DNA of 64,000 nt from Cyanobacteriota bacterium SRBZ.bins.94.201705 (GTDB lineage: Bacteria > Cyanobacteriota > Cyanobacteriia > Cyanobacteriales > Cyanobacteriaceae). A model generated the notes under the pieces. It did no database searches, was not told the origin of the DNA, and saw nothing but the letters and a program-made list of their open reading frames with translations. Positions 54,588-59,971 of this stretch are shown here, piece by piece. Where the stretch lies: the NCBI GenBank assembly GCA_030549855.1, contig JAUQQP010000044.1, positions 308,196-372,195 on the forward strand. The letters run 5' to 3'. Within the stretch, counting starts at the first letter, position 1; each line of letters begins with the position of its first letter. A program made the translations under genes and the position numbers.

Positions 54588-55994
54588 ATGGCACAAGTAG
54601 GGTTTAAAGCCGGTGTGCAAGACTATAGGCTAACGTACTACACACCGGATTATACGCCCAAGGATACAGACTTATTGGCCTGCTTCCGGGTAACACCCCA
54701 GCCAGGAGTGCCCCCAGAAGAGGCAGCAGCGGCAGTAGCGGCAGAATCCTCCACAGGGACTTGGACTACCGTATGGACTGACAACCTGACCGACTTGGAG
54801 CGTTATAAGGGCCGTTGCTATAATATTGAGCCAGTACCAGGGGAAGAAAACCAGTACTTCGCCTTCGTAGCCTACCCCCTCGACCTGTTTGAAGAAGGCT
54901 CTGTAACCAACATTCTAACATCCCTGGTAGGAAACGTTTTCGGTTTCAAGGCCCTTCGGGCACTACGCTTGGAAGATATTCGTGTTCCAGTAGCTCTGGT
55001 AAAAACCTTCCAAGGGCCTCCACATGGTATTGTAGTAGAAAGAGACAAGCTGAATAAATACGGTCGTCCCCTGTTGGGATGCACCATCAAACCCAAATTG
55101 GGGCTTTCTGCGAAAAACTATGGCCGCGCCGTATATGAGTGTCTCCGCGGGGGCTTGGACTTCACCAAGGACGACGAAAACATCAACTCCCAGCCCTTTA
55201 TGCGGTGGCGCGATCGCTTCCTGTTCGTCCAAGAGGCAGTACAAAAAGCTCAAGCAGAAACCGGTGAAATCAAAGGGCACTACCTGAATGTTACCGCCCC
55301 CACCTGTGAGGAAATGCTAAAACGGGCGGAATTTGCCAAGGAAATCGGTGCCATTATCATCATGCACGACTTCCTCACCGCCGGTTTCACCGCTAACACC
55401 ACCCTGGCCAAGTGGTGCCGCGATAATGGGGTACTACTCCACATCCACCGGGCAATGCACGCCGTAATCGACCGTCAGAAAAACCATGGTATCCACTTCC
55501 GTGTATTAGCCAAGTGTCTGCGTCTGTCCGGTGGTGACCACCTCCACAGTGGTACCGTTGTAGGGAAACTGGAAGGCGATCGCGCAGCTACCCTCGGCTT
55601 CATCGACCTGATGCGGGAAGACTACGTAGAAGAAGATCGTTCTCGTGGTATCTTCTTCACCCAAGACTACGCTTCTATGCCCGGTGTACTGCCAGTAGCC
55701 TCTGGTGGTATTCACGTATGGCATATGCCCGCCCTGTTGGAAATCTTCGGCGATGACGCCTGCTTCCAATTCGGTGGTGGGACACTAGGACACCCATGGG
55801 GTAACGCCCCCGGGGCAACCGCCAACCGTGTAGCCTTAGAAGCCTGTGTCCAAGCCCGCAACGAAGGTCGCTCTCTCGCCCGGGAAGGCAACGAAATCAT
55901 CAAAGAAGCCGCCCGTTGGTGCCCAGAATTGGCCGCCGCTTGCGAATTGTGGAAAGAAATTAAATTCGAGTTCGATACCGTTGATACCCTCTAG
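54588..55994 (+). CDS. rbcL: RuBisCO large subunit, form IB
   Basis: Carboxylates ribulose-1,5-bisphosphate in the Calvin cycle, within carboxysomes. Active-site elements are present: TIKPKLG with the catalytic Lys (K168), the carbamylated Lys in [11 protein letters not shown] (K194), the HIHRAMHAV region, and the loop 6 region [11 protein letters not shown]. The length of 468 is slightly below the usual 470-475. Codons look strongly biased toward C-ending forms, as expected for high expression. It carries the only two HIP1 octamers noticed in the window. It heads rbcL-rbcX-rbcS. Confidence 0.99.
55210..55217. repeat. HIP1 octamer
   Basis: GCGATCGC inside rbcL, the highly iterated palindrome of many cyanobacteria. 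Confidence 0.9.
55576..55583. repeat. HIP1 octamer
   Basis: Second GCGATCGC inside rbcL; no further copy was noticed in the window. Confidence 0.9.
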
Positions 55995-56097
55995 GTTTCA
56001 GTGGTACTAGCCCCAGGGAAGAGCTCTCATTATGGGCCAAAGGTTATAAATAGATTAAGAGAGTTCTCCCCTTTTCCGGGCTAAACCCCACTGAAAC
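55995..56097 (+). promoter_or_regulatory. Long nested stem filling the rbcL-rbcX spacer
   Basis: GTTTCAGTGG at 55995-56004 pairs perfectly with CCACTGAAAC at 56088-56097. Inside it TAGCCC (56008-56013) pairs with GGGCTA (56078-56083). An inner stem, GAGCTCTC (56021-56028) with GAGAGTTC (56059-56066), extends by GGGA/TCCC with one bulge. The structure starts at the base after the rbcL stop and ends one base before the rbcX ATG. It can act as partial terminator, processing site or 3' stabiliser setting the rbcL to rbcXS ratio. Confidence 0.75.
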
Positions 56098-56098
56098 T

Positions 56099-56506
56099 AT
56101 GTCCTACAATCATATTGCCAAGGAGACGGCGCGGGTGTTACAAAGCTATCTCACCTACCAGGCTGTTAAAATCATCATCAGTCAACTCAGTGAGACCAAT
56201 CCCCAGCAGGCTATATGGCTTAGTCAGTATAGTGATCGTACTAAAATTCAGGATGGCGAAGCCTATCTCCACCAGCTGTTGGGGGAAAACAAAGAGTTGG
56301 TGTTACGGATTTTAACAGTCAGGGAGGACATAGCTAATCATATCCTGGAGTTTTTGCCAGAAATGGTTAAAACCAACATCCTCCAGTCTAATATAGAACA
56401 CCGTCGTCGTCTCTTAGAAAGTTTAACCCGAGTTTCTCCTAACAATAGTCCACAATCTCACCCAGAAATCGACCCAAAACCACTAGACAATAAGAAGGAA
56501 GAATAG
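56099..56506 (+). CDS. rbcX: RuBisCO assembly chaperone RbcX
   Basis: Homodimeric chaperone that clamps the RbcL C-terminal tail during assembly of the L8 core. It is helical, 135 residues, with the typical start ([19 protein letters not shown]) and the [13 protein letters not shown] segment. The last 25 residues are a polar, disordered-looking tail. The gene lies between rbcL and rbcS, four bases before rbcS, so translation with rbcS is closely linked. Its ATG is hidden at the foot of the spacer stem. Confidence 0.95.
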
Positions 56507-56510
56507 GTAT

Positions 56511-56846
56511 ATGCAAACACTACCAAAGGAGCGTCATTACGAAACCCTTTCCTATCTCCCTCCCATGACCGACCAGCAAATCCTCAAACAGATACAATAT
56601 TTGCTGGCTCAAGGTTACATCCCTGCTATAGAATTTGAAAAAGACCCCACTCCTACTGATCACCACTGGACTTTGTGGAAACTCCCCCTGTTTAATGCTA
56701 CCACCCCCCAAGAGGTATTAAACGAGGTTCGGGAATGCAAAGCCCAATACCCCGACCACTACATCCGTGTTATCGGCTTTGACAACATCAGACAATGTCA
56801 GGCTCTCAGCTTTATCGTTTACAAGCCCAACGCCAGCCGTTTCTAA
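56511..56846 (+). CDS. rbcS: RuBisCO small subunit
   Basis: Small subunit capping the L8 core to form L8S8. It shows [25 protein letters not shown] at the start, [11 protein letters not shown] in the middle and [15 protein letters not shown] near the end. The 111-residue length matches cyanobacterial RbcS without a chloroplast transit peptide. It is the last gene of the operon and is followed by a strong terminator. Confidence 0.98.
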
Positions 56847-56882
56847 GAATCTAAACATATCGTAACATCTCTCTCAGACTAG

Positions 56883-56910
56883 GGTAGCCCTGTGCTACCT
56901 TTTTATTTTT
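56883..56910 (+). terminator. Terminator of the rbcLXS operon
   Basis: GGTAGC at 56883-56888 and GCTACC at 56894-56899 form a stem with a 5-base loop, followed by TTTTTATTTTTT. A textbook rho-independent terminator 36 bases after the rbcS stop. Confidence 0.9.
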
Positions 56911-56977: not shown

Positions 56978-59971
56978 ATGTACCCCTGGATTTTTGCCTT
57001 TGCCTTGGCTACTTCTGCCATTGCCCATCCCTTGGGGAATACTGGCCATTTGCCCCAACAAACCCCAATCCTCACATCCCAATTCCCCCTAGATGTCTCA
57101 CAATTGTACCGGAAAATAGAGGCCCTGTACTACCAGGGAAGGTATGCAGAAGCCGTCGCCTTAGGGGAGGAGTTGCTGAAAAAAGTAATAACCACATTTG
57201 GCTACCAGAGTCGGGAAACCGCTATCACCCTTAATGCTATTGCGCATCTCCAGGCTAATCTGGGTAATTATACTCAGGCAGAGGAGCTATACCAACAGTC
57301 CCTTGCTATCCTAGACAGAATAGTGGGGGAAAATCACCCCGATACCGCCACCGTAATTAACAACCTGGGATTGCTATACTCCTATCAAGGCAAATACCCC
57401 CAGGCAGAGGAGTTGTTGTTAAAGTCTCTGGGGTTACGAATTAGCCTCGGGGGAGAAGAAGATGGTTCCGTGGCAGAGTCCTATAACAATCTTGCCCTGT
57501 TATACTACTACCAGGGAGAATATGAGGAGGCAGAGTCTTTCTATCAAAGGGCAATAAGGGTGGCTAAAAAGGCCTTTGGCTACAAACACCCCACCACTGC
57601 CACCTTTCTCAGCAATCTGGCCCTACTTTATACCACCACTGGTAATTATATCAAGGCAGAGTCCCTTTTACAACAGTCTCTCTCTATCCGCCGAGAAGTT
57701 TTGGGAGATAAACACCCAGATACCGCCTACTCTTTAAACAATTTAGGTCTGTTATACTACCACCAGGGAAATTATACAGAAGCAGAGACACTATTTGCTA
57801 AAGCCCTATCTATTTTTCAGGAAACCCTGGGGGAAAAAAATCCCGTCACCGCCACTGTCGTCAATAATCTAGCAGAATCCTATAGATTCCAGGGGAAACT
57901 TACCCAAGCCTTACCCCTCTACCAAAAGTCTCTCCAAATTAGACTGGAAACTCTGGGAGAAATACATCCTGACGTCGCCCAGTCTTATAACAACATAGCA
58001 GGCATCTATCTGGACAGTCATGACTATGAGCAGGCAGCTAATTATTATACCAAAGCCTTAGAAATTCAAAAACAAGCCGTGGGGGAAAAACATGCTGATA
58101 CTGTCCAAATTCTCATAAACTTAGCCGAGTCTTCTCTTCGTCTAAAACAATATCAAGCCGCAGAAACCCAATTCCAAAAAAGCCTCACTCTGGCTGGGGA
58201 GGTTTTGGGGGAAAAACACCCTCTTCTGGCAAAATCCCTCACTGGTTTGGCTTCCCTCCACTGGCTAACCACAAAATATCCCCTGGCATTAGACTATCTC
58301 CAGCAGGCTACAGAGGTGGAAGAATATAATCTTAGTCAGTTTCTCTACTCTACTGGCGACGAATATCGCAAACTTCTATATATTAATACCCTAAAAGGCA
58401 CTACCAATGCGGCCATCTCCCTTCACCTTAATTACCTCCCAGATGACAAAAAAGCTGCCACATTAGCCTTAACCACTATTCTCCGTCGCAAGGGTAGGGT
58501 GTTAGACGCTATGAGTGACATAATGGCTACCCTGCGTCAACACAGTAACCCCCAAACAGAAGCCCTATTTGACAGTCTAGCCCAAAAGAAAAACCTATTG
58601 GCCAGTCTTAGTCTTGGTAACACTAACCTATCTTTCCCTCTATATCAACAAACTATTTCTCGCCTAGAAGAGGAAATCCGGCAACTGGAAACCCAACTGT
58701 CTGCCAAAAGTGCCCAATATCGCACCCTTACTCAACCTATCACCCTAGAGGCCGTTAGACAAGCCCTACCACAAGACGCTGTGTTGGTAGAATATTTCAT
58801 CTATCAACCCCTTAACCCCAAAACCCCTTCCCCGGCAAAACCTCGTTACGCCGTTTACCTGTTACACCCAGACGGCAGTCTTAAAGGAATAGACTTGGCA
58901 GAAGCAGAAACTATAGACTCCCTGGTAACCCAATTTCGTCAGTGTCTAAGCCTAGGGGAAGAGGGAGACAAGACAGTTATTACCCAGTCTAGCCAACAAC
59001 TATATCAACTCGTCTTCCAACCTCTATTACCCTATCTAAAAGACAGGAAAAAACTCTTCCTATCCCCGGAAGGACAGTTGAATCTAATCCCCTTTGCCGC
59101 CTTGCAAGATAACAAAGGCAATTATCTCATCCAAGAATACACCTTCAACTATCTTACTAGTGGTAGGGACCTTTTGAGAATCCAAAATCGTTTCCCTTCC
59201 TCCTCTCCCCCTGTAATCGTAGCGGCACCAGAATACGATATTGACTACAAAAACCTGAGGGAAAGCCGCAGGGGGGTAAGAAGAAATGTCCAGTGGAGAA
59301 ACCTAGCCTGTTGCACACCCCTAGAAGGCACAAAGGAAGAAGCCCAGGCCATTGTATCCCTTCTCCCCAATTCTCGTCTTTATATTGGCCAAGAGGCTAC
59401 TGTAGATAAACTTTTTACCGTAAAAGCCCCAAAAATACTCCATATAGCCACCCACGGCTTCTTCTTGCCACCCCCAGAAGACACCTTTTCCCCCACCCCC
59501 ACCACTCCCGCCACCAGGGGAATATTACCCCCCTCCGGCTATATTCAAGACAATCCCCTCCTGTTTTCCGGGTTGGCTTTTGCCGGCTTTAACCCCAGCA
59601 AGGGGAAAACCGACGGCGTCTTAACCGCCTTAGAAGCTGGCAGTTTGTATTTGTGGGGAACTCAACTAGTAGTACTGTCTGCCTGTCAAACGGGGGTGGG
59701 AGAAGTGCGTCAGGGAGAGGGAGTGTATGGCTTAAGAAGGGCATTGGTATTAGCTGGTGCGGAAAGTCAGTTAATCAGTCTTTGGGATGTCTTTGATGAT
59801 GCCACCAGGCAGTTGATGACTAAATACTATCGCCGACTCATCCAGGGAGAAGAAAGAGTCCAGGCCCTCCGTCAGGTACAATTAGAAATGCTAAACAGTA
59901 AACAATACCATCACCCCGTCTTCTGGGCAGCATTTATCCCCTCGGGAGACTGGCGTAGCCTCCATCCCTAA
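56978..59971 (+). CDS. Exported TPR-CHAT protein (caspase-like fold)
   Basis: A protein of 997 residues. It begins with a signal peptide (YPWIFAFALATSAIAHP), so it is probably periplasmic or secreted. About ten tetratricopeptide repeats of 42 residues follow (pattern NLGLLYxYQGxYxxAExL) to near residue 450, then a helical linker, then a CHAT domain. The CHAT caspase-like dyad is intact: His826 in HIATHGFF and Cys903 in LSACQTG. CHAT proteases cut partner proteins in signalling or defence; here no partner is adjacent. It lies downstream of the rbcS terminator, so it is separately transcribed. Confidence 0.9.
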   Translation: MYPWIFAFALATSAIAHPLGNTGHLPQQTPILTSQFPLDVSQLYRKIEALYYQGRYAEAVALGEELLKKVITTFGYQSRETAITLNAIAHLQANLGNYTQAEELYQQSLAILDRIVGENHPDTATVINNLGLLYSYQGKYPQAEELLLKSLGLRISLGGEEDGSVAESYNNLALLYYYQGEYEEAESFYQRAIRVAKKAFGYKHPTTATFLSNLALLYTTTGNYIKAESLLQQSLSIRREVLGDKHPDTAYSLNNLGLLYYHQGNYTEAETLFAKALSIFQETLGEKNPVTATVVNNLAESYRFQGKLTQALPLYQKSLQIRLETLGEIHPDVAQSYNNIAGIYLDSHDYEQAANYYTKALEIQKQAVGEKHADTVQILINLAESSLRLKQYQAAETQFQKSLTLAGEVLGEKHPLLAKSLTGLASLHWLTTKYPLALDYLQQATEVEEYNLSQFLYSTGDEYRKLLYINTLKGTTNAAISLHLNYLPDDKKAATLALTTILRRKGRVLDAMSDIMATLRQHSNPQTEALFDSLAQKKNLLASLSLGNTNLSFPLYQQTISRLEEEIRQLETQLSAKSAQYRTLTQPITLEAVRQALPQDAVLVEYFIYQPLNPKTPSPAKPRYAVYLLHPDGSLKGIDLAEAETIDSLVTQFRQCLSLGEEGDKTVITQSSQQLYQLVFQPLLPYLKDRKKLFLSPEGQLNLIPFAALQDNKGNYLIQEYTFNYLTSGRDLLRIQNRFPSSSPPVIVAAPEYDIDYKNLRESRRGVRRNVQWRNLACCTPLEGTKEEAQAIVSLLPNSRLYIGQEATVDKLFTVKAPKILHIATHGFFLPPPEDTFSPTPTTPATRGILPPSGYIQDNPLLFSGLAFAGFNPSKGKTDGVLTALEAGSLYLWGTQLVVLSACQTGVGEVRQGEGVYGLRRALVLAGAESQLISLWDVFDDATRQLMTKYYRRLIQGEERVQALRQVQLEMLNSKQYHHPVFWAAFIPSGDWRSLHP

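Follow-up and report, generated by a model that had tools for sequence, protein, structure and literature searches.

A strongly folded, phylogenetically recurrent RNA element between rbcL and rbcX in a cyanobacterial Rubisco operon

Stable RNA structures in intercistronic regions are known in several forms. Hairpins engaged in translational coupling can mask the start of the downstream gene, intrinsic terminators and attenuators combine a hairpin with a run of U, and the spacers of cyanobacteria contain palindromic repeats of the REP and MITE type. The nearest described logic is selective RNA processing and stabilization (SRPS), with a stable stem-loop behind the first gene of an operon, as in the cip-cel operon of Ruminiclostridium (Clostridium) cellulolyticum, which serves a multi-subunit complex (PMC4423207, PMC10311766). 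In the sections of PMC4423207 used here, 28 of 33 SRPS stem-loops have no run of U behind them, and the more abundant gene is the one with a 3′ stem-loop. Here, we analysed a 64,000-nt stretch of cyanobacterial DNA (hereafter, the window), in which the spacer between rbcL and rbcX is a strongly folded, phylogenetically recurrent intercistronic RNA element. Like the cip-cel elements, it is a stable stem-loop after the first gene of an operon for a multi-subunit complex, as seen from its fold and from the gene order, the genes being presumably co-transcribed. The U tract, mostly absent from the SRPS as presented in those sections of PMC4423207, is also missing from most of the corresponding spacers of relatives (101 of 116 without a hairpin followed by four T). 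Unlike the SRPS of cip-cel as presented in the same sections, the rod in the window's genus has a UUUU inside it (no U run follows the window's outer stem), and the rod of the window fills the whole spacer, abuts the next start codon and is described here from a predicted fold. As a kind of element the rod is ordinary, and it is unusual in that it closes the entire distance between the stop codon and the start codon.

The large and small subunits of Rubisco are needed 1:1, and the assembly chaperone RbcX presumably in smaller amounts. Genes with different output needs sit together here, and a folded spacer between them is a concrete, mutable element with which their balance can be probed. Open reading frames and Pfam matches give the gene order rbcL, rbcX, rbcS in the window, which would be transcribed as a single operon with the following features:

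54588-55994, + strand: rbcL, Rubisco large subunit (open reading frame; Pfam RuBisCO_large, 6.1e-142), stop codon TAG at 55992-55994
55995-56098, + strand: rbcL-rbcX spacer, 104 nt, an end-to-end RNA rod in the MFE fold
55995-56004, + strand: 5′ arm of the outer stem, 10 bp, starting at the base after the rbcL stop (MFE)
56008-56013, + strand: 5′ arm of the middle stem, 6 bp (MFE)
56015-56072, + strand: inner hairpin, about -19 to -20 kcal/mol by itself; stems of 4, 9 and 3 bp interrupted by single-base bulges
56015-56018/56069-56072, 56020-56028/56059-56067 and 56030-56032/56056-56058, + strand: pairs of the inner stem (MFE)
56072-56075, + strand: UUUU where the inner hairpin ends on its 3′ side, resembling a weak terminator tract; L007, a relative of the same genus, has it too
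56078-56083, + strand: 3′ arm of the middle stem, 6 bp (MFE)
56088-56097, + strand: 3′ arm of the outer stem, leaving a single base between it and the rbcX ATG (MFE)
56099-56506, + strand: rbcX, Rubisco assembly chaperone (Pfam RbcX, 7.9e-51)
56511-56846, + strand: rbcS, Rubisco small subunit (Pfam RuBisCO_small, 1.1e-42), 4 nt past rbcX

A terminator-like hairpin with a T tract at 56881-56901, 35 nt past rbcS, is a plausible end of the operon; such sites are in no excess in the window (3 in the window-wide scan vs 3.4 in shuffles). Directly 3′ of rbcS, positions 56978-59971 encode a 997-aa protein that combines tetratricopeptide repeats with a CHAT domain.

The spacer alone folds at -44.1 kcal/mol, with a z of -5.0 to -5.4 over repeated runs. 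Free-energy folding thus bears out the sequence-only reading of this DNA, according to which the 104 bases fold on themselves from end to end. With a few flanking bases, the energy was -45.5 kcal/mol vs a shuffle mean of -27.7 (z -4.92), none of 200 shuffles being as low, and the fold was unchanged when 60 nt from each of rbcL and rbcX was included. The perfect 10-bp outer stem and the 6-bp middle stem noticed in that reading are both found in the MFE fold. The inner stem had been put at about 12 bp; its 9 + 3 bp were recovered, but with a single-base bulge between them and with a continuation of 4 bp, and an extra 4-bp hairpin sits at the apex of the rod in the MFE fold. The rod had also been said to run from the base after the rbcL stop to one base before the rbcX start, which agrees with the paired limits of 55995-56097; the noted end, 56097, is the last paired base, and the spacer itself ends at 56098. 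A known RNA family was rejected: Rfam gave no match at gathering score in the whole window, and at 55900-56200 there were just three snoRNA matches (E 2 to 6.4), far below the gathering score.

The spacer was compared with 106 codirectional spacers of 50-250 nt in 452 kb of the source contig, window and rbcL-rbcX spacer included, the ends of which are approximate because the genes were called by a simple ORF score with longest starts. Their mean z was -0.47. Within this background, the rbcL-rbcX spacer ranked fourth by z and first by energy per base and was one of four at z ≤ -5; it was also the only one of the 106 that combined z ≤ -3 with closure at most 3 nt from both ends. A multi-copy mobile repeat (REP/MITE) was ruled out, since the spacer sequence has a single full-length copy in the genome, the other four matches being 14-17 bases long with E above 1.

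To cover the same junction in other cyanobacteria, rbcL searches supplied 30 loci from the window's own and related genomes, the best 80 of 583 named-genome relatives and 27 further stretches, a sample drawn without a search for alpha-cyanobacteria and tilted to close relatives because the best 80 of 583 were taken. G010 and G013 (incomplete rbcL) were excluded and G043 had no match; beside rbcL, L097 and L124 had neither an rbcX nor an rbcS match, and L021 together with 12 loci titled non-cyanobacterial had no rbcX match. We extracted 123 rbcL-rbcX spacers, 29-271 nt long before the length cut. With the window's own included, 117 were distinct and 116 were scored (L101, 29 nt, was omitted), and 106 were left once near-identical ones had been removed.

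The rbcL-rbcX spacers differ widely in length and sequence. The 116 distinct ones had a mean z of -3.99, with z ≤ -2 in 101 and z ≤ -3 in 83 (15 missed z ≤ -2), counts that are non-independent trials because the loci share descent. As controls, the 110 nt upstream of rbcL gave a mean z of -0.22 and z ≤ -2 in 2 of the 109 stretches scored (out of 135 distinct, 30-400 nt only, a few non-cyanobacterial loci included), and the rbcX-rbcS spacers gave a mean z of -0.79 and z ≤ -2 in 17 of the 77 scored (out of 106 distinct, those <30 nt left out). In the 110 nt past rbcS, a place at which termination is to be expected, the mean z was -3.36, with z ≤ -2 in 88 of 114. Loci without an rbcX match yielded 13 rbcL-rbcS spacers, of which 10 were scored and 3 had z ≤ -2. 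When only lengths of 80-160 nt were considered, z ≤ -2 was reached by 72 of 77 rbcL-rbcX spacers, 2 of 107 stretches upstream of rbcL, 11 of 47 codirectional spacers of the window's own genome (the window's spacer included) and 7 of 15 rbcX-rbcS spacers, so that folding is frequent in the few long rbcX-rbcS spacers as well. A differently spelled hairpin is present at the rbcL-rbcX junction in most of the sampled cyanobacteria.

We then asked how the pairing behaves while the sequence changes, using a swap test in which each spacer was cut at its midpoint, blind to the fold, and its own halves were set against halves from other species. Own halves beat the swapped mean in 100 of 106 rbcL-rbcX spacers and ranked in the top 10% of partners in 60 of them. 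The region downstream of rbcS fell in between (58 of 103 with the own pair better, 28 of 103 in the top 10%), and the exact 110 nt upstream of rbcL gave 40 of 83 and 5 of 83, respectively. For the outer stem in the window's family, the first 8 bases of 13 spacers were paired with the 8-base stretch that stops 1-2 nt short of the rbcX ATG, in a register set by hand, with a one-base shift between the window's genus and the rest. Standard pairs occupied 83 of 104 cells, and 61, 39, 34, 43 and 42 in slid registers. Permutations had a mean of 69.7 and none of 5000 reached 83, a result that is no true probability because the permutations ignore phylogeny and L008 and L011 are near-identical. Pair 1 was G-C in 2, A-U in 5, G-U in 2 and non-standard in 4 of the 13 spacers, and pair 5 was C-G in 4, U-A in 3 and non-standard in 6. 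The family ends (10 and 13 bases, 12 spacers) also paired better with their own partners than in any of 5000 permutations. In the 94 spacers outside the family, the first 10 and last 13 bases showed no covariation (714 of 5000 permutations as good), although wider ends, 20 with 26 bases, did covary (0 of 5000 as good).

The only same-genus relative, L007, differs from the window's spacer at 13 of 104 positions, 7 of them paired; 4 pairs are kept and 3 are broken. No two-sided compensatory change was seen in this comparison, the 4 kept pairs having changed on one side. The spacer diverges from L007 about as fast as the rbcL DNA (13/104 vs 146/1407). Compensatory changes in relatives, proposed as a check of the fold, are thus found in the outer stem of the family, but the changes relative to L007 are one-sided, with three broken pairs. 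With moderate confidence, we read the spacer as an intercistronic RNA hairpin that is preserved on account of its shape and not of its spelling. Its folding calls for caution when the rbcL-rbcX spacer is used as a phylogenetic marker or when the operon is moved into plants.

Concerning its function, the most likely reading, to which we give an even chance, is that the rod is a signal for 3′-end protection or processing, or for partial termination, that would separate the output of rbcL from that of rbcX-rbcS. According to this proposal, the rod would form at the 3′ end of rbcL and, once cleavage or partial termination had taken place at the rod or slightly past it, would be a barrier to 3′-to-5′ decay; a stable rbcL-only mRNA could then build up above the rbcX-rbcS part. 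In the window's genus, the inner hairpin and UUUU may add some partial termination, and the outer stem, which would be completed only in read-through transcripts, would cover bases -2 to -11 of rbcX. A role of the rod in unequal operon output is likely, and 3′-end protection and rbcX gating, both also proposed from the sequence, are plausible putative roles. That the structure gives unequal output from one operon had been proposed from the sequence and is partly supported; compensatory pairing in the family and recurrent folding without sequence conservation speak for it, and the one-sided changes relative to L007 speak against it.

Read counts from Fremyella diplosiphon bear on this separation. 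In Table 2 of PMC5784247, the part of that paper used here, the reads for wild type in green and red light and for the mutant in green and red light are 11,568, 13,245, 8,840 and 29,880 for rbcL, 4,522, 5,419, 1,249 and 2,586 for rbcX, and 3,828, 6,487, 1,390 and 3,087 for rbcS. From these we computed rbcL:rbcX ratios of 2.6, 2.4, 7.1 and 11.6, a 4.7-fold spread over the four conditions, and rbcX:rbcS ratios near 1 (1.18, 0.84, 0.90 and 0.84). The heading over the counts is 'No. of reads', and that part of PMC5784247 mentions no normalisation for length; once divided by the gene lengths of the window as stand-ins, the rbcL:rbcX ratios become about 0.7, 0.7, 2.0 and 3.3. Wild-type Fremyella thus shows no drop from rbcL to rbcX in these counts, the length-corrected ratio being about 0.7. 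As the change of the ratio across conditions is independent of length normalisation, the uncoupling in the tabulated data would lie between rbcL and rbcX. These counts, which come from another species, fit an rbcL output separate from that of rbcX-rbcS, a reading that is drawn here and not by the authors of PMC5784247 in the section concerned. In Synechocystis Δsll0528, rbcL, rbcX and rbcS drop together (-1.26, -1.15 and -0.99 as tabulated in the portion of PMC12014562 used), which shows no rbcL/rbcX split and counts against the uncoupling reading. The portions of PMC4320622, PMC4770689, PMC4419860, PMC10989929 and PMC4766695 used here describe neither an rbcL:rbcX ratio nor such a hairpin. 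Titles and abstract openings of the open-licence literature yielded no report of an rbcL-rbcX hairpin as a functional element, which is weak evidence of absence. Older work has dealt with the co-transcription of rbcL and rbcS in Anabaena and may mention such structures.

A translational gate or bridge, in which the outer stem hides the region before rbcX from free ribosomes and a ribosome stopping at rbcL opens the 5′ arm and permits the rbcX start, is to our mind rather unlikely. Its geometry fits: the outer stem runs from the base after the stop codon to one base before the ATG, and the closed rod sets the rbcL stop beside the rbcX start. The footprint of a ribosome terminating at the rbcL stop presumably covers the 5′ arm of the outer stem, and with no gap between the stop codon and this arm, such a ribosome should melt it. 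Mean unpaired values for bases -12 to -1 were 0.09 for rbcX (0.26 in L007), 0.75 for rbcL and 0.42 for rbcS, in contexts of different lengths, so the low value for rbcX is as a gate would have it. In addition, the compensatory pairing of the family lies in exactly the outer stem, the family ends beat all 5000 permutations, and at least 5 MFE pairs joined the first 12 with the last 15 bases in 8 of 13 family spacers vs 40 of 117 overall. However, the mean accessibility of rbcX bases -12 to -1 in the family (0.31, 12 spacers) is little below that of the others (0.38, 94 spacers), the distance from the hairpin foot to the rbcX start has a median of 9.5 nt and is ≤3 nt in just 22 of 106 rbcL-rbcX spacers, and the extreme ends outside the family lack covariation, although the wider ends have it. 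Closure right up to the rbcX start codon is mainly a feature of the family. The rod resembles translational coupling hairpins in that its outer stem masks the region before rbcX and its 5′ arm lies where we take a terminating ribosome to sit; it differs from them in that masking right up to the start codon is no general rule beyond the window's family, and in being known here from predicted folds. Also unlikely, in our judgement, is a combined scheme in which the window's family has turned the rod into a closed bridge that sets the rbcL stop next to the rbcX start and reserves initiation at rbcX for ribosomes that have finished rbcL, and the cyanobacterial rod in general, conserved in shape and free in sequence, sets large-subunit output against that of the chaperone and the small subunit.

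Termination was a further role proposed from the sequence, in the form that the structure can end most transcripts after rbcL. This claim gained no support from a standard terminator scan, which found no site within the rbcL-rbcX spacer, though the inner hairpin and UUUU are present. A strong ordinary terminator was rejected on these grounds, a weak one (inner hairpin + UUUU) remaining by a laxer test, namely a hairpin of -8 kcal/mol or better that ends at four T. The laxer test was positive in 15 of 116 rbcL-rbcX spacers, those of the window and L007 among them, in 81 of 114 regions downstream of rbcS and in 0 of 66 rbcX-rbcS spacers. A stricter U-tract measure (at least 5 T among the 8 nt that follow the main hairpin) was positive in 3 of 116 rbcL-rbcX spacers and in just 17 of 114 regions downstream of rbcS, so it misses many terminators. 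The laxer-test counts imply that the element is no ordinary intrinsic terminator in most of the sample, and that the rod of the window's genus includes a weak candidate terminator. We therefore weighed a partial intrinsic terminator, or attenuator, in which the inner hairpin and UUUU would stop a fraction of transcripts after rbcL, and regard it as unlikely. Both the window and L007 have an inner hairpin, of about -19 kcal/mol, whose foot carries TTTT, and the RNA prefix ending at TTTT folds into this hairpin, as an attenuator would. Against it, the standard scan finds nothing in the spacer, the T run is only four long and followed by CC, the loop is large, and the same 101 of 116 spacers have no hairpin + 4 T. 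The window's element is like an intrinsic terminator in having its inner hairpin followed by UUUU, and unlike one in its short U tract, its large loop, its additional middle and outer stems, which can form only with sequence 3′ of the U tract, and its negative standard scan.

A neutral build-up at a site tolerant of repeat or palindrome insertion, giving a fold without a role, is very unlikely: relatives' spacers do contain palindromic elements (for example, six with TGTACA ends), three Nostoc rbcLX genotypes have a 74-158 nt insert (as given in the part of PMC4476775 used), and three other codirectional spacers of the 106 in the genome lie at z ≤ -5, but the other spacers of the operon and genome are mostly without such folds, the outer stem has compensatory changes, and the window's spacer has one full-length genomic copy, which also separates it from the REP/MITE palindromic repeats of cyanobacterial spacers, whose inverted-repeat architecture it shares.

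Three further features were noted in the spacers. A conserved leader, approximately GGCTGGGGTCAAGC, stands directly before the rbcX start in, for example, L066, L073 and L119; the 14 nt preceding rbcX contain GGGTCA in 35 of 106 rbcL-rbcX spacers, and the motif is in none of the regions before rbcS or rbcL at the same loci. The window's family is without this GGGTCA leader, which could be a ribosome, protein or processing site. Palindromes with TGTACA ends lie inside the rods of 6 of 106 rbcL-rbcX spacers (L015, L017, L066, L070, L075 and L076), from two cyanobacterial groups, as if the rod tolerated palindromes that lengthen it. Elsewhere in the window's genome, another codirectional spacer, L158 (contig C39, 300831-300922, minus strand), is folded at a z of -4.7, and its 3′ arm, rich in purines (AGGAGAGG), immediately precedes the start codon called for the following gene, which makes it a candidate ribosome-site-hiding hairpin.
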